DNA from: Acidimicrobiales bacterium | Lineage (GTDB): Bacteria; Actinomycetota; Acidimicrobiia; Acidimicrobiales; Poriferisodalaceae | Reading direction: 5' to 3' | Assembly (NCBI GenBank): GCA_009843525.1 | Contig: VYDH01000016.1 | Coordinates: 1-64,000 of the forward strand | Length of the DNA stretch: 64,000 nucleotides | In this document: positions 48,457 to 56,415 of the stretch, in pieces | Numbering within the stretch: the stretch's first letter is position 1 | How the letters are laid out: every line of letters begins with the position of its first letter | The notes under the pieces: model-generated | The model's database searches: none | Told to the model about the DNA's origin: nothing | Seen by the model: only the letters and a program-made list of their open reading frames with translations | Translations under genes and position numbers: made by a program

Positions 48457-49401
48457 ATGAGCGGCACCTTGGACCTCACTTCGAACGAAACGGAACTCCA
48501 GCGCTATCTCGACGAAGTCGACGAGCACGGCTACTGCATCGTCGAAGGGGCCCTCGAACCGGCGCTCGTCACCGAGATCCGCGAGACCGTGGCCCGGGTG
48601 GAGGACGAGCTGAACGTTCAGCCGAAGGGGAACCGCATCGAGGGGTTCGCCACCAAGCGCATGTACAACCTGCTCCACAAGGACCGGTCGTTCTGGAAGC
48701 TGCCGATCCACCGCAACGTGCTGCCGTTCCCGCAGCGGCTGATGGAACCCGGAGCGATCCTGTCGGGCACTACGTGCATGCACATCGGCCCCGGCGAGGT
48801 GCACCAGGGCCTGCACTCCGACGACGGCCTGGTCGACCAGATCGACGTGCCGCGGCCCCGCCCACCGTTCATGGTCACGACCATCTGGGCGTTCACCGAC
48901 TTCACCGACGAGAACGGTGCCACCCGATTGGTCCCTGGCTCGCACCGCTTCGACCACGAGCCTCAGCCGGGCGAGAAGCCGGACTACATCGCAGCCGAGA
49001 TGCCGGCAGGCTCGGTGCTAGTGGTGAACGGCGGCACCTGGCACTGCGGCGGCGCCAACACGTCGGAAGACGACTGGCGGCTGGGCATCAGCGTTCAGTA
49101 CTGCCGGGGCTGGATGCGCCAGCAGCAGAACCAGTACTTCAGCCTCTCCCCAGAAGACGTCCGTGACATGCCCGACGAGCTGGCTGCGTTGTGCGGGTTC
49201 AGCCTGTACCGGGGGATCATGGGCCACATCGACGGCGCCAGCCCGGGCCGGTTCCTCGGTGCCGAGGGCCTTGCCGAGACCGCATATGCGGCGCGCATCA
49301 AGGCGATCGACGAGGGCGAAGAGATTGGCGGTATCGGCACCGCCGAGCCGCAGGCTGGCGGCAACGACGCAGTCGAACCTGAAGCCGCCGCGGCTGACTG
49401 A
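48457..49401 (+). CDS. Phytanoyl-CoA dioxygenase family protein (PhyH)
   Basis: This 314-residue 2-oxoglutarate/Fe(II) oxygenase has H and D ligands in GLHSDDG (about residue 111) and the distal histidine probably in GGTWHCGGAN near 195. The YCIVEGALEP start and FTDFTDENGATRLVPGSH near 150 are typical of PhyH proteins. Such enzymes hydroxylate branched acyl-CoAs, halogenated or phosphonate compounds, or natural products. A GAGACT hexamer lies 6 nt before the ATG. It is followed by an SDR after 30 nt. Confidence 0.9.
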   Translation: MSGTLDLTSNETELQRYLDEVDEHGYCIVEGALEPALVTEIRETVARVEDELNVQPKGNRIEGFATKRMYNLLHKDRSFWKLPIHRNVLPFPQRLMEPGAILSGTTCMHIGPGEVHQGLHSDDGLVDQIDVPRPRPPFMVTTIWAFTDFTDENGATRLVPGSHRFDHEPQPGEKPDYIAAEMPAGSVLVVNGGTWHCGGANTSEDDWRLGISVQYCRGWMRQQQNQYFSLSPEDVRDMPDELAALCGFSLYRGIMGHIDGASPGRFLGAEGLAETAYAARIKAIDEGEEIGGIGTAEPQAGGNDAVEPEAAAAD

Positions 49402-49431: not shown

Positions 49432-50208
49432 ATGGAATTGCGCGATCGAGTTGCGATCATCACCGGCGGGGGCGGCGGCATCGGCGGGGCCACCGCACGG
49501 CACTGGATGGCCGAGGGTGCTCGCCACGTCGTCGTGGCCGACTACAACGCCGAAGCTGCGCTAGCCGTAGCGGACGAGATCGGATGCGAGGGCGTCGGGC
49601 TCGACGTCACCGACGAAGCGGCCGTTGCCGACCTGGTCGAACGCGCGCTCGACGCGCACGGCCCGATCGATGTGTTCTTCTCGAACGCCGGCGCTGGTGC
49701 CGAAGGCGGCGTTGACGCCTCCAATGACGCGTGGCAGTCCCAGTGGGAGCTGCACGTGATGAGCCACGTGTATGCCGCCCGTGCCGTGCTGCCCTCAATG
49801 CTGGCCCGAGGCGAGGGCTATCTGGTGCACACCGCCAGCGCAGCTGGGCTGCTGGCTGCCATGGGCTCTGCGCCGTACTCGGTCACCAAGGCCGCGTGCA
49901 TCAAGCTGGCCGAGATGGAGGCGATCCTACACGGCGACGACGGCATCCGGGTGTCGGTGCTGTGCCCGCAGGGCGTGAACACCGCCATGGCGCCCCAGCG
50001 GCTGGCCGACGGCGGCACCGACGGGATTGTCGAACCCGAGTTCGTGGCACAGGTCATCACCGAGGCCATGGCCGAAGAGCGCTTCCTGATCCTCTCCCAC
50101 CCCGAGGCCCAGACCTACGTGGAGCGCAAAGCGTCCGACCCGGACCGCTGGCTCCGGGGCATGCGCCGGCTGCGCGAGCGCTCGCTCGACCTGGAAGAAG
50201 GCGCCTGA
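49432..50208 (+). CDS. SDR-family oxidoreductase
   Basis: This 258-residue classical SDR has TGGGGGIGGATA (about residues 12-23), SNAGAG near 83, catalytic YSVTK near 148 and a C-terminal YVERKASDPDRWLRGMRRL extension. AAGAAGGAG lies 8 nt before the ATG, a strong ribosome binding site that fixes the start. It is probably co-transcribed with the PhyH gene and could oxidise the alcohol made by it. Confidence 0.92.
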   Translation: MELRDRVAIITGGGGGIGGATARHWMAEGARHVVVADYNAEAALAVADEIGCEGVGLDVTDEAAVADLVERALDAHGPIDVFFSNAGAGAEGGVDASNDAWQSQWELHVMSHVYAARAVLPSMLARGEGYLVHTASAAGLLAAMGSAPYSVTKAACIKLAEMEAILHGDDGIRVSVLCPQGVNTAMAPQRLADGGTDGIVEPEFVAQVITEAMAEERFLILSHPEAQTYVERKASDPDRWLRGMRRLRERSLDLEEGA

Positions 50209-50259: not shown

Positions 50260-51405
50260 ATGGCTGATACCGATGTCAAGGCACTGACGGGCGGGCTCGA
50301 GCTGCCCGACTTCGAGACAACGGCGTTCACGACGCCACCGCCGCTGGCCGATGCCACCGTGGCCATCGTGACTTCGGCGTCGCTCCACCATCCCGACCAG
50401 GACGATTTCGAGCCGATCGACACCGGCTATCGCGTGCTCGACGGCGGCCGGCGCGACTACATGTGCGGCCACTGGAGCCCCAACTTCGACGCCACCGGGA
50501 TCGCCCTCGACCTCAACACGGTGTTCCCGATCGACCGCCTCGACGAGCTGGCCGCTGACGGAACCATCGGCCGGGTCTCCGATATTCACCTGTCCTACGC
50601 AGGCAACCAGTTCGACCTGTCCGGCGTGCGCATGGACTCCGGTCCTGCGGGCGCGAAGTTCCTGCGTGAGCAAGGGGTGGACATCGCCCTGTTCACCCCC
50701 GTCTGACCGCTGTGCACGCGTACCGTGAGTACGCTCGCCCACGTTTTCGAGGAAGCCGGAATCGCCACCGTGGCACTGGGTTCCATCGGCGCTCACATTC
50801 AGGGCACCGCCCCGCCGCGCGGGCTGTGGTGCGACTTCCCACTCGGGCGCCCGCTCGGCAAGCCCAACGACGCCGACTTCCAGCACCGGGTGCTGGCGCA
50901 CGCCTTCGGGCTGCTCACCTCCGATCAGCCTGTGGTGGAGAAGTTCGCCGAGTCGATCGACGACGACGGCACCAGCACCATGTCGTGCGAGCTGCCGCCG
51001 CGGCACGATCCCAGCCTGCATCCCGCAGTGGACGAGGCCAACGGCCTGCGGCAGGCCTACGACCGGGCCGTGGCCAAGCTGGGCAACCGCACGGGCGCCG
51101 GGCGCGTCGTGGCCGCCGATGACATCGGGGATGCCGTGCAGTCCTTTGTGCGCGTCGCCGAGGGAACGCCCTGGAAGGAAGCGGGTATTCCCGGCATCCC
51201 GGCCCGGGTGGCTCAGGACATCCGCGGCTACTACGAGACTGCCGCCCTCGCGCTTGCCGAACACGCTCCTGCCGCATGGGCGGGCGCGCGCTGGTTCTTC
51301 ACCTCCACCGAGGCGGGCCGCACGATCATGGCCGCCCGCAAGGCCATGGCCGACGCCGGCGAGAAGCAGCCCATCTGGTTCTTCCTCGCACCAGGCGACA
51401 TGTAG
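50260..51405 (+). CDS. GrdB/PrdB-family selenoprotein with in-frame UGA (Sec)
   Basis: This is one gene of 382 codons if the TGA at 50704-50706 is read as selenocysteine, U149 of about 381 residues. The two open stretches (50260-50703 and 50707-51405) are in the same frame, and together they cover a complete glycine/sarcosine/betaine reductase selenoprotein B (GRDB)-family protein. The UGA lies in FTPV-U-PLCTRT, and family members I recall have a cysteine there in a TPVCPxC motif, so Sec replaces a redox cysteine in a UxxC pair. Downstream FPLGRPLGKPNDADFQ, FVRVAEGTPWKEAGIPG and IRGYYETAALALAEH are family features. The substrate is unknown; GrdA and GrdC partners are not present. The final stop is TAG. 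The alternative is a Cys-to-stop pseudogene. The translation factors (selA, selB, selC, selD) are not in this window. Confidence 0.8.
50704..50706 (+). other. In-frame UGA codon, predicted selenocysteine
   Basis: This TGA interrupts a single reading frame; the frame then stays open for 698 bases. It is 9 bases before the resolving cysteine codon TGC (50713-50715), which gives U-P-L-C. A one-base change from TGC or TGT would create it, so pseudogene formation must be excluded by comparing close relatives. Confidence 0.75.
50718..50734 (+). promoter_or_regulatory. Candidate bacterial SECIS hairpin
   Basis: gcgtac-cgtga-gtacgc forms a perfect 6-bp stem with a 5-nt loop whose second base is G. 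The loop begins 17 nt after the UGA. Bacterial SECIS elements, as I recall the consensus, have a small apical loop with G in its first two positions, 16-37 nt from the UGA. It lies inside the coding region, as required for bacteria. Confidence 0.6.
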
Positions 51406-51488: not shown

Positions 51489-52790
51489 GTGTTGATCGGC
51501 CGGCCATTCCACGGCTGGCGCGTGGCGTGGGCCGGTTTCTGGGTGCTATTCATCGTGTACGGCCTGCAATTCAGCTACGGCACCTTCGAGGGCGCCATCA
51601 GCGCAGACACCGGCTGGTCAACCAACTGGCTGCAGCTCGCGTACGCGCTATACATCCTCAGCTACAGCGCCGTCAGCGTGTGGAGCGGGCAGCTCACCGA
51701 CCGGATCGGCCCCCGTCAGGTCATCGCCGTGGGCGCCCTGCTGCTGGCTGCCGGCTACCTGGTGCTGTCGTCTGCGCCGAGCTTGATGCTGGTCTTCATC
51801 GGGTTGGCGGTGATCGCGCCGCTCGGCATGTCGTCGTCGTGGGTGCCCGCGAATGCCACCGTCGTGCGCTGGTTCACCGCTCGGCGCGGCTTGGCGACGG
51901 GCATCGTGGGTTCGGGCGGCAGCGCCGGCGGGATCGTGGCACCGCCGATCGCCGCGTGGCTCGTCTCACAGTTCGGCTGGCGCACGGCGATCGCCGCGAT
52001 GGCCGTAGTGGGCGGCGTGTTCATGGCGGCCACCGCCATGCTGTTCGTGCGCGATCCCGAGTCGATCGGCCAGTATCCCGACGGTCGCACGCCGGATCCC
52101 GCCGACCGCCCGCTCGCCCGTTCGCGGGTCGTGTCGAGGCCGGCGGGATTCGTCGTGGAAGCCACCCGCAGCAGCGCCCCCGACGCCGAGAATCCCCGCA
52201 CGGCGTGGACGGCATCCGCAGCGTGGCGCACCTCGGTGTTCTGGCGCATCTTCGGGATGTTCGCCTTGACGTTCGTCGTCGTGTTCGTGCCGTTCGCACA
52301 CGGCGTTCAGTACGCCCGCAGCCTCGGCTTCTCCCTGCAATGGGCGTCAGGAGTCATCAGCTCGGTCGGCGTCGGGGGCCTCGTGGGGCGCATTGTGACC
52401 GGTCCATTGTCGGACCGCATCGACCGCCGTCGAGCCGTGGCTCTGGCGTTGGCGGTCGAAACGCTGTCGTTCGTCGGCATAGCCGTGGCCGACAATCTGG
52501 TGCTGCTGTACGCCTCGGCTATCGCGTTCGGATTGTCCTACGGCGGGAGCGTGGCGGTCTTCCCGGCGCTGGTCGCCGATTATTTCGGCCGTACCCATGC
52601 CGGTGCGATAGTGGGCCGCTTCTTCGCAACCGCAGGATCGTGCGCAGCGATCGGGCCGTACGTGGCGCAGTTGCTGCTGAATGCAACGGGGGGCTATGGC
52701 TGGACCTTCACCATGGCGGCAGTTGCCAATGCGTGTGCGCTGGGGCTCGCATTCACGCTGCCCCGTCCCGGTCTGCTGCCCAAGCGCTGA
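51489..52790 (+). CDS. MFS transporter
   Basis: This 433-residue major facilitator has twelve hydrophobic helices. It starts FHGWRVAWAGFWVLFIVYGLQFSYG, a beginning common in monocarboxylate-type (OFA/MCT-like) bacterial MFS proteins. It has the motif-A loop SGQLTDRIGPRQVIA near residue 66, a GWRTAIAAMAV segment near 163 and a long cytoplasmic loop at about 195-235. It lies 83 nt after the selenoprotein gene on the same strand and could carry its substrate; the link is by position only. The GTG at 51489 is the first usable start. Confidence 0.9.
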   Translation: MLIGRPFHGWRVAWAGFWVLFIVYGLQFSYGTFEGAISADTGWSTNWLQLAYALYILSYSAVSVWSGQLTDRIGPRQVIAVGALLLAAGYLVLSSAPSLMLVFIGLAVIAPLGMSSSWVPANATVVRWFTARRGLATGIVGSGGSAGGIVAPPIAAWLVSQFGWRTAIAAMAVVGGVFMAATAMLFVRDPESIGQYPDGRTPDPADRPLARSRVVSRPAGFVVEATRSSAPDAENPRTAWTASAAWRTSVFWRIFGMFALTFVVVFVPFAHGVQYARSLGFSLQWASGVISSVGVGGLVGRIVTGPLSDRIDRRRAVALALAVETLSFVGIAVADNLVLLYASAIAFGLSYGGSVAVFPALVADYFGRTHAGAIVGRFFATAGSCAAIGPYVAQLLLNATGGYGWTFTMAAVANACALGLAFTLPRPGLLPKR

Positions 52791-52834: not shown

Positions 52835-52881
52835 CGCAGATGGCCGTTACACCCGCCGCCGCGGCTCATGAGGGGGATTCG

Positions 52882-55800
52882 ATGGCACTCGCCGACTTCA
52901 AGCTCGAGGATCGCTTCGACCGCATGGAAGGCGATGTGGCCATGTCGGGCGTGCAGGCGCTGCTGCGCGTGCTGCTGGATCAGCTCCGGGCAGATCGCCG
53001 TGACGGGCTGAACAACGCGGCCATGGTGTCGGGCTACCGCGGGTCGCCGCTGGGCGGCATCGACTCGCTGATGACGACCAATGCCACCGAGCTCGAGCAG
53101 AACAACATCATCTTCGAGCCCGGCCTCAACGAGGATCTGGGCGCCACGATCGTGTGGGGAAGCCAGCTCTCGAACCGCAACTTCGAGGGCCGCTACGACG
53201 GTGTGCTCGGCATGTGGTACGGCAAGGCGCCGGGGGTCGACCGGTCTGGAGACGCCATCAAACATGCGAACGTCTGTGGCGTTGACCCCAAGGGTGGCGT
53301 GCTGCTCGTGGCCGGCGACGACCCCGCTTCGAAGTCGTCCACGCTGGCGTCTGAGTCCGAGCCCGTGCTCATCCACTTCCAGACGCCGATCCTGTATCCC
53401 GGCTCGGTCCAGGAGGTCATCGACTACGGCCGCTGGGGCTACGAGCTGTCCCGCTACAGCGGATTCTGGTCGGCGCTCAAGATCGTCACCAACGTGGCCG
53501 ACGGCTACGCGACCGTGCAGGTTGGCCCTGGCCGTGTCTCGGTCACGCGTCCCGAATTCGAATGGGAGGGCAAGCCCTGGGCGCACACCCAGCAGGACGC
53601 CCTGTTCGGCCCGAACGCGGTGCGCATGGAGCTCGAGATCCACGAGGGCCGCATGGTCGCAGTCGACGAGTTCGTGGCGGCCAACAAGCTCAATCGCCAG
53701 ACCGTTCCCACCCGCGACGCCCGGATCGGCCTCGTGGCCGCCGGCAAGACCCATTACGACCTGCGCGAGGCGCTCGACCGCATGGGATTCGACGACATCG
53801 AGCTGGAGCGCCGAGGCGTCCGCGTCTGGAAGCCAGCCGTGGTGTGGCCGCTCGAGCCCACCAGCCTGCGCGAGTTCGCCGATGGGCTCGATGTGATCGT
53901 CGCTGTGGAAGAGAAGCGCTCGATCATCGAGGCGCTCATGAAAGAGAACCTCTACGGCGTGGCCGGCGCGCCCGTCGTGCTCGGCAAGCGCGATCAGCAC
54001 GGCGGCTTCTGGTTCCCGGGCCACGGTGAGATGGACGCCGATCTCATCGCACGCAAGATCCGGCCGTTCCTGGTGGAGCGGCTCGGTCCCGAAGGCATCG
54101 GGCCGGCTGTGCCCGAGCGCATCACGATCCCGTTGGCGGTCACCACTTCCAAGGGCGAGAAGGCCGCCGGCCGCACGCCGGGGTTCTGCTCGGGCTGCCC
54201 GCACAACCGCTCCACCTGGGTGCCGGAGGGCTCCGAGGCAGGCGGCGGCATCGGCTGCCACGGCATGGCGGCCATGACGCCCACCCGCAACGTCCGCGGC
54301 ACGACTCAGATGGGCGGCGAAGGCTGCCAGTGGGTCGGCGCCGCGCCGTTCGTCACCATGGAGCACCGGTTTCAGAACATCGGCGACGGCACCTACCACC
54401 ACTCCGGCTCGCTGGCGCTGCGACAGGCGGTGGCCGCCGGCACCAACGTCACCTACAAGATCCTCTACAACGGCGCGGTCGCCATGACGGGCGGCCAGGA
54501 CATCGACGGCGGCATGGCCGTGCCCGAGCTGACCCGCTCGGTGCACGCCGAGGGCGTGGCCAAGGTGATGGTTGTCACCGACGACACCTCCAAGTACCCC
54601 GCCGATGCCGAGTTCGCTCCCGGCACCGACGTCTGGCACCGCGACCGCATGGACGAGGCGCAGCGCGTGCTGCGCGAGATCGAGGGCTGCACGGTCCTGA
54701 TCTATGACCAGGCGTGTGCGGCCGAGCTGCGGCGCGACCGCAAGCGCGGCAAGGTGGCCGAGCCCAACACGCGAGTGTTCATCAACGAGGCGGTCTGCGA
54801 GGGCTGCGGCGACTGCGGCGAGAAGTCGAGCTGCCTGAGCGTGCAGCCCATCGAGACCGAGTTCGGCCGCAAGACGCAGATACACCAGTCGTCGTGCAAT
54901 AAGGACTTCACCTGCCTCGACGGCGACTGCCCGGCGTTCATCGAGGTGGTGCCGGCGGGGAAGATCCCCACCAAGGCCACGGTGGCAATCGAGCACATCG
55001 GCGACAACCTGCCTGGGCCCGACCGTATCGACGAGGGCAACATCTTGATGATGGGCATCGGCGGCACGGGCGTGGTCACGGTGAACCAGATGCTGGCGAC
55101 GGCCGCCCTGCTCGACGGCAAGACGGCCAACGGCCTCGACCAGACCGGTCTTGCCCAGAAGGGCGGCCCGGTGCTGTCGAACCTCAAGGTTCGGCGCATG
55201 GGGTCGGACAACGGCAGCCCGAATGGCGACGGCCACTCTGCTGACGAGGCCGGGGGTGACGAGGCCAACAAGGTCGGGCTTGGCGAGGCCGACGCCTACA
55301 TCGTGTTCGACCTGCTGACCGGCACCAACCCGGCCAACCTCGACAAGGCCCTGGCCGGCAAGACGGTGGCCGTGGTGTCGTCGTCGAAGGTGCCCACCAC
55401 CTCGATGGTGCGCGACACCTCCGCCGAGTTCCCTGAGTGGACGGCGTTCCAGCGGGTGATCGACGAGTCCACCAGCCCCGAGCGCAACGTCTACTTCGAC
55501 GCCGGCACTTTGTCGGACAACCTGTTCCGCTCGCACATGCCGGCCAACGTGCTGGTGGTGGGCGCCGCCTACCAGGCGGGCGTGGTCCCGATCAGCGCTT
55601 CGGCGATCGAGCGAGCCATCGAGCTGAACGGCGTTGCGGTGGAGATGAACACCCAGGCGTTCCGCATCGGCCGCAAGATCGTGCTCGACCCCGACTTCCT
55701 GGTAACGCTCGAGGTCGAGCGGGTCGGCAAGGTGAAGCGTGAGATCGGCCCGTCAGGCCGTGAGCAGGACCTCATCGACGCAGTGCCCAACCAGTCCGAG

Positions 55801-56415
55801 GAACTGGCACGGCTGCTGCGGATCCGGGTGCCCGACTTGGTGGCCTACCAGAACCACGCATACGCAGCCGCCTACGCCAGCTTCATTGCCAAGGTGCGCG
55901 AGGCCGAGGCAGCGGCGGGCAGCGAGACAGCGCTCAGCGAGGCCGTGGCGACGTACCTGTACAAGCTGATGGCCTACAAGGACGAGTACGAGGTGGCCCG
56001 GCTGCACCGCTCCAAGGCGTTCCAGCAGGCTGTGCGCGACCAGTTCGGCGACAAGACCGATGTCACCTACAAGCTGCACCCGCCGATCATGCGTCGCATG
56101 GGCGTCGAGAAGAAGATCGGCCTCGGCCGCTCAGGTGACATGGCATTCGCACTGCTGGCGCGGATGAAGGGCCTGCGCGGCGGCGCGCTCGACGTCTTCG
56201 GCAGGACCGCTCACCGGAAGATGGAGCGTGAGCTGATCGACGAGTACCGCGGGATGATCGAACGGGCACTCGACACGCTGGGCGCAGGCGACGAAGCTGC
56301 CTACGCCCGGGCCGTCGAGATCGCCCGGCTTCCCGACATGATCCGCGGCTACGAGGAAATCAAGGAGAACAACGTCGAGCTGTTCCGGGCCCGCGCAACC
56401 GAACTCGGCGCTTGA
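52882..56415 (+). CDS. Indolepyruvate:ferredoxin oxidoreductase, fused IorA-IorB type
   Basis: This enzyme of about 1177 residues oxidatively decarboxylates aryl-2-oxo acids to acyl-CoA with ThDP and Fe-S clusters, using ferredoxin as acceptor. The N-terminal pyrimidine domain starts near SGYRGSPLGGIDS (about residue 47). FCSGCPHNRSTW lies near 430, and the PP domain near GGIGCHGMAAM. The ferredoxin-like motif CEGCGDCGEKSSC (about 640) is followed by QSSCNKDFTCLDGDCP. The gamma-type domain has MGIGGTGVVTVNQ near 720. The ATG at 52882 is preceded by AGGGGG at 5 nt and gives the N-terminus of homologues; a start at 52840 would add 14 residues. Its last 105 bases recur, diverged, at 59124-59228. 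Confidence 0.93.
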   Translation: MALADFKLEDRFDRMEGDVAMSGVQALLRVLLDQLRADRRDGLNNAAMVSGYRGSPLGGIDSLMTTNATELEQNNIIFEPGLNEDLGATIVWGSQLSNRNFEGRYDGVLGMWYGKAPGVDRSGDAIKHANVCGVDPKGGVLLVAGDDPASKSSTLASESEPVLIHFQTPILYPGSVQEVIDYGRWGYELSRYSGFWSALKIVTNVADGYATVQVGPGRVSVTRPEFEWEGKPWAHTQQDALFGPNAVRMELEIHEGRMVAVDEFVAANKLNRQTVPTRDARIGLVAAGKTHYDLREALDRMGFDDIELERRGVRVWKPAVVWPLEPTSLREFADGLDVIVAVEEKRSIIEALMKENLYGVAGAPVVLGKRDQHGGFWFPGHGEMDADLIARKIRPFLVERLGPEGIGPAVPERITIPLAVTTSKGEKAAGRTPGFCSGCPHNRSTWVPEGSEAGGGIGCHGMAAMTPTRNVRGTTQMGGEGCQWVGAAPFVTMEHRFQNIGDGTYHHSGSLALRQAVAAGTNVTYKILYNGAVAMTGGQDIDGGMAVPELTRSVHAEGVAKVMVVTDDTSKYPADAEFAPGTDVWHRDRMDEAQRVLREIEGCTVLIYDQACAAELRRDRKRGKVAEPNTRVFINEAVCEGCGDCGEKSSCLSVQPIETEFGRKTQIHQSSCNKDFTCLDGDCPAFIEVVPAGKIPTKATVAIEHIGDNLPGPDRIDEGNILMMGIGGTGVVTVNQMLATAALLDGKTANGLDQTGLAQKGGPVLSNLKVRRMGSDNGSPNGDGHSADEAGGDEANKVGLGEADAYIVFDLLTGTNPANLDKALAGKTVAVVSSSKVPTTSMVRDTSAEFPEWTAFQRVIDESTSPERNVYFDAGTLSDNLFRSHMPANVLVVGAAYQAGVVPISASAIERAIELNGVAVEMNTQAFRIGRKIVLDPDFLVTLEVERVGKVKREIGPSGREQDLIDAVPNQSEELARLLRIRVPDLVAYQNHAYAAAYASFIAKVREAEAAAGSETALSEAVATYLYKLMAYKDEYEVARLHRSKAFQQAVRDQFGDKTDVTYKLHPPIMRRMGVEKKIGLGRSGDMAFALLARMKGLRGGALDVFGRTAHRKMERELIDEYRGMIERALDTLGAGDEAAYARAVEIARLPDMIRGYEEIKENNVELFRARATELGA

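Follow-up and report, generated by a model that had tools for sequence, protein, structure and literature searches.

A PrdB/GrdB-like gene with an in-frame UGA in an Acidimicrobiales bacterium: a probable selenoprotein without detected reductase partners

The question raised by this locus is whether a reading frame interrupted by a single TGA represents one gene, two genes or the remains of one. The window, that is, the whole stretch of 64,000 nucleotides which was analysed (contig VYDH01000016.1 of an Acidimicrobiales bacterium), contains at 50260-51405 on the forward strand a single frame whose sole interruption is the TGA at 50704-50706. In a plain ORF listing this frame appears as a stretch of 148 aa starting with ATG (50260..50706) and, in the same frame, another of 226 aa starting with GTG (50725..51405), much as described in an earlier note on this DNA, where two open stretches separated only by this TGA were reported and a gene caller was expected to return two genes. 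Read through conceptually, the frame encodes 381 aa up to a TAG terminator at 51403-51405, the single TGA falling at residue 149. The context of the putative selenocysteine (Sec149) is FTPV-U-PLCTRTV, in which TPV-U-PLC (residues 146-152) constitutes the UxxC motif that the note had also recognized. The gene and its elements are the following:

50260..51405, + strand: PrdB/GrdB-like gene of a probable selenoprotein of 381 aa, Sec149 included (ORFs, homology, TGA conservation and dN/dS)
50704..50706, + strand: in-frame UGA, putative Sec149 of UxxC (TGA in 53/55 class genomes with a long homologue and in 80/80 named-genome loci, taken as the best 80 of 373)
50713..50715, + strand: Cys152, second residue of UxxC (invariant in 35/35 aligned sequences, from 35 of the 55 genomes)
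50718..50734, + strand: putative bacterial SECIS upper hairpin, GCGUAC-CGUGA-GUACGC (11 nt past the UGA, its loop 17 nt past the UGA)
50938..51402, + strand: C-terminal, mainly helical extension, residues ~227-381 (without family match; the PrdB profile ends at residue 216 and helices are predicted after 250)

The best NCBIfam match of the read-through product is PrdB, the selenocysteine subunit of D-proline reductase (TIGR04483; 1e-31, residues 27-216), followed by GrdF, GrdH, TIGR01918 and GrdB. These five models match all 35 members of alignment A1, which was drawn from 35 of the 55 class genomes having a match at E <= 1e-91 (hereafter, the long family), TIGR04483 reaching 6.6e-41 at best; Pfam GRDB (PF07355) is likewise matched by 35/35 members at E <= 1, with a best E of 1.1e-10. 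Nevertheless, the description as a complete GRDB-family protein given in the earlier note went too far, since the window protein scores 16.8 bits with PF07355, below the gathering cut-off of 22, and 110.2 bits with TIGR04483, below the curated cut-off of 300, and no family match past residue ~220 was found with the NCBIfam and Pfam profiles. The window protein shares with PrdB both the UxxC motif, a PrdB feature, and homology over residues 27-216, but it comprises 381 aa compared with the 238 positions of the PrdB model and adds the C-terminal extension. As for protein B of the glycine, sarcosine and betaine reductases (GrdB, GrdF and GrdH; PF07355, TIGR01918), the homology corresponds to the C-terminal part of the models (positions ~268-409 of 431-435), while the N-terminal half is missing, as is the third Cys of UxxCxxC, the GrdB motif given in the sections consulted of a 2026 review (PMC13188914), residue 155 being Thr in 35/35 A1 sequences. 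In the predicted model (mean pLDDT 92.3), an alpha/beta part is followed by helices, and UxxC sits between strand 142-146 and helix 152-165. The Pfam GRDB profile (347 positions) matches until model position 345 at residue 146, just before Sec, presumably as a result of UGA truncation in the sequences from which it was built.

The classical reductases work with partner subunits, and these were searched for through PF04723 (GrdA) and PF09338 (GrdE/GrdG-type, which may cover PrdA as well; PrdA was searched for through this profile only). Neither profile matched anything in the own genome or in the 55 genomes of the long family; elsewhere in the sample of 395 genomes of the class (probably Acidimicrobiia), 25 were positive for PF04723 and 24 for PF09338. 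The absence of a GrdA partner, already proposed in the earlier note, was thus borne out, with the reservation that, in an assembly of 43 contigs (3.34 Mb) which is 93.8% complete, a missing partner is not certain. Two PF09338 proteins were checked, giving sarcosine reductase GrdG as the best match, the fluoroacetate reductase model as the next one, and PrdA weakly (~1e-11 to 1e-12). The fluoroacetate reductase (NCBIfam FarE, NF053623) shows, by its name, that the annotated substrates of the wider reductase family are not limited to amines; the Far models match PF09338 proteins of other class genomes and give no match to the window protein. The GrdA genes of the 25 positive class genomes carry an in-frame TGA, and some class relatives (e.g. 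L192-L195) seem to possess classical glycine/sarcosine/betaine-type reductases.

Could the protein still be a true subunit of a D-proline, glycine, sarcosine or betaine reductase, its partners being distant or having been missed? The PrdB and GrdB-type profiles do match every A1 member, and the search for PrdA depended on PF09338. However, the partner families are absent from the own genome and from the 55 long-family genomes, in a class where both occur, the scores are far under the curated cut-offs, and Thr replaces the third Cys of UxxCxxC, all of which makes such a subunit improbable. In fact, as neither GrdA nor a GrdE/GrdG-type partner was found, in which respect the window protein differs from GrdB/GrdF/GrdH and, as regards a PF09338-type partner, from PrdB, the gene probably does not encode a classical Stickland-type amino-acid reductase.

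The TGA itself is widely conserved. Some match to the protein was found in 132 of the 395 class genomes (at most 4 candidates were scored per genome). Within the long family, exactly one in-frame TGA falls within the match in 53 of the 55 genomes and none in the other two (G158, G194), and the same codon is TGA in all 80 named-genome loci, the best 80 of 373 confirmed. Outside the class, the phylum sample yielded a long homologue with TGA (L198) and another with Cys (L200, TPACPMC). The Cys which the earlier note had placed at this site (TPVCPxC) was therefore met with in L200, as well as in two short paralogues (L094 with TGC, L095 with TGT). The two non-UGA class homologues (L092, L093), which are related, carry Ala in an open frame; as both bear one genus label, a single event is probably responsible. 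The earlier note had named relatives with TGC or TGT, decay of the gene and failure of the homologues to align as signs that would speak against it: the relatives keep TGA, the homologues align across the UGA position, and no sign of decay was seen, dN/dS being low on both sides. Two further PrdB-like genes with an in-frame TGA (L021, L022), located in the own genome, have the motifs UPVCHQT.

To measure selection, the coding sequence was compared with its seven closest orthologues from named genomes, which are 89-96% identical. In all seven comparisons dN/dS was 0.07-0.14 before the UGA and 0.04-0.14 after it, and the codons downstream of the UGA are under purifying selection. These data also bear on the possibility of two separate proteins, one of 148 aa ending at the UGA and another of 226 aa initiated at the GTG at 50725. 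A GTG start does exist, and selenoproteins usually show a mix of termination and selenocysteine insertion. Nevertheless, codons 150-155, which lie between the TGA and the GTG and would belong to neither protein, show no amino-acid change in 7/7 comparisons, P150, C152, R154 and T155 are invariant in 35/35 A1 sequences, and a single PrdB profile match (27-216) spans the site; two independent products are, then, very unlikely.

Downstream of the UGA lies a hairpin with a 6-bp stem and a 5-nt loop (G then U), which begins 11 nt after the UGA, the UGA-loop spacing being 17 nt. It falls within the limits for bacterial SECIS elements as stated in the sections consulted of the 2026 review (stem of 4-16 bp, loop of 3-9 nt with G in the first two places, spacing of 16-37 nt, MFE <= -7.5; PMC13188914), and is like the common consensus in stem, loop and spacing, with no notable difference. 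All six pairs form at the same offset in 52 of the 53 long-family UGA genes, and five in the remaining one; synonymous-codon draws from the same genes (n=2000) yielded 0.41 genes with 6/6 pairs on average and never more than 5, although the strength of this statistic is qualitative only, since the draws take related sequences as independent. Moreover, the third base of the Arg codon covaries with the facing codon, the combinations being CGT-ACG (20), CGC-GTG (26) and CGC-GCG (7), so that a switch among Thr, Val and Ala at the protein level is accompanied by a matching silent change of the Arg codon. Among the named loci (best 80 of 373), 70/80 keep 6/6 pairs and 10/80 keep 5/6, all ten losing the outermost pair (one because of an N), and in the two Ala homologues the stem is down to 3/6 pairs. 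The loop G and MFE limits are satisfied by 53/53 UGA genes, but the MFE limit does not discriminate, since both Ala homologues pass it too (-8.4). With regard to folding energy, the 60-nt stretch is no stabler than its shuffles (z +1.43), the 35-nt stretch gives z +0.54 with another hairpin as its minimum-energy fold, and it is only the 17-mer taken by itself that is unusually stable (z -3.28).

The machinery for selenocysteine insertion is present as well. selA, selB, selD and the tRNA-Sec gene, which the earlier note had proposed to look for, were all found in the own genome: selB scores above its curated cut-off with selA immediately before it, the tRNA-Sec has the anticodon tca, and selD carries its own in-frame TGA (L010). 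At the class level, a selA match was obtained in 276 of the 395 genomes, 256 of them exceeding the cut-off, and in 119 of the 132 genomes with any protein match (hand count). Within the long family, 51 of the 53 UGA genomes have one (hand count from two tables), the exceptions being G174 (70% complete) and G188 (79% complete); the Ala genomes, 64% and 80% complete, both lacked a selA match.

The UGA might also be read as some other amino acid or passed by leaky read-through. Against this stand the full set of selA, selB, selD and tRNA-Sec, the covarying SECIS, the Cys found at the site in L200, and the Ala homologues, in which a reduced stem coincides with genomes, themselves incomplete, without a selA match; a reading other than selenocysteine is hardly to be expected. 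That the TGA is a sequencing error or the true stop of a decaying pseudogene, as the two listed ORFs and the loss of the Sec codon in two homologues might suggest, is practically negligible in view of the same TGA in 53/55 class genomes and 80/80 named loci (best 80 of 373), the low dN/dS on both sides and the covarying SECIS.

Taken on its sequence, therefore, the split gene is almost certainly intact and encodes a selenium-containing protein, and it is highly probable that the locus is one selenoprotein gene whose product is a solo relative of PrdB/GrdB. Its surroundings in the window are formed by four genes:

48457..49401, + strand: PhyH-type Fe(II)/2-oxoglutarate dioxygenase, two genes upstream (PF05721, 6.6e-25; a recurrent neighbour in close relatives)
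49432..50208, + strand: short-chain dehydrogenase (SDR), directly upstream (PF00106, 1.6e-38)
51489..52790, + strand: MFS transporter, directly downstream (PF07690, 1.5e-53)
52840..56415, + strand: 2-oxoacid:ferredoxin oxidoreductase-like protein, POR + DUF6537 (PF20169, PF01558; same cluster in 20/80 named loci, best 80 of 373)

The resulting order is PhyH-SDR-selenoprotein gene-MFS-POR. Judging from the record titles of the best 80 of 373 loci, the close clade consists of Acidimicrobiia and Gammaproteobacteria, with a few other labels. Of these best 80 loci, 29 have a same-strand PhyH gene upstream, which in 27 of them ends within 1.8 kb, 20 encode the POR/DUF6537 protein downstream, and 22 contain an SDR belonging to one cluster, in some cases at other distances or on the opposite strand; some contigs are too short to tell for such counts. 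In L122 an EamA transporter gene sits between the SDR and the selenoprotein gene. The PhyH of the gammaproteobacterial locus L166 shares only 25% identity with the window PhyH, so that the pairing with PhyH may have two origins. In the wider family, an HMM seeded from the close-clade PhyH detected it in 3 of 38 contexts, always at least 3.3 kb away, and the PhyH setting is not conserved family-wide. Four loci (L137, L146, L156 and L160) have two amidohydrolase genes and a HalD-like oxygenase gene upstream (assigned by clusters, with Pfam on the L156 copies). The own genome also contains cytochrome oxidase subunit 1 (COX1), which is consistent with aerobic life but no proof of it.

Concerning its function, the solo PrdB/GrdB-like protein may be envisaged as an oxidoreductase in which an alpha/beta domain (~27-230) would carry Sec149-x-x-Cys152 just before a helix, and in which the helical C-terminal extension may replace the usual partner subunit. 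The site itself speaks for a UxxC redox or nucleophilic selenol; beyond this, we infer that the selenolate of Sec149 would attack or reduce a small metabolite, that the intermediate would be resolved by Cys152 through formation of a selenenyl sulfide, and that a cellular thiol system would re-reduce the selenoenzyme. Only tentatively can the protein of the closest clade be placed in a catabolic pathway of a cell respiring oxygen, in which the products of the PhyH oxygenase, dehydrogenase and transporter genes, all oriented like its own gene, would also take part. It is also conceivable, though rather doubtful, that these proteins form a distinct, oxygen-compatible subfamily of selenoenzymes which cleave bonds reductively in the manner of PrdB/GrdB, the fused C-terminal domain acting as substitute for the pyruvoyl partner, and which would thereby supply the reductive step in a pathway that an Fe(II)/2-oxoglutarate oxygenase initiates.

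PrdB-like UxxC selenoproteins are described as abundant in two reports on marine metagenomes, one from 2005 with 42 genes (PMC1088965) and another from 2008 with 235 Sec and 110 Cys forms (PMC2398784). As far as these descriptions go, in which a host lineage is not given, the window protein shares with them the UxxC motif, the PrdB name and the marine setting, which means that this kind of selenoprotein was already known and that the solo long form would be a variant of it. According to the parts consulted of the 2026 review (PMC13188914), aerobic bacteria rarely keep selenoproteins; in contrast, a selA match is present in 276 and a long homologue in 55 of the 395 class genomes. Furthermore, genes of this type are easily missed: ORF calling divides this one in two, and its match to Pfam GRDB stops just before Sec. 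The locus offers a clean test case of what a GrdB-like selenocysteine site does without its usual partners.
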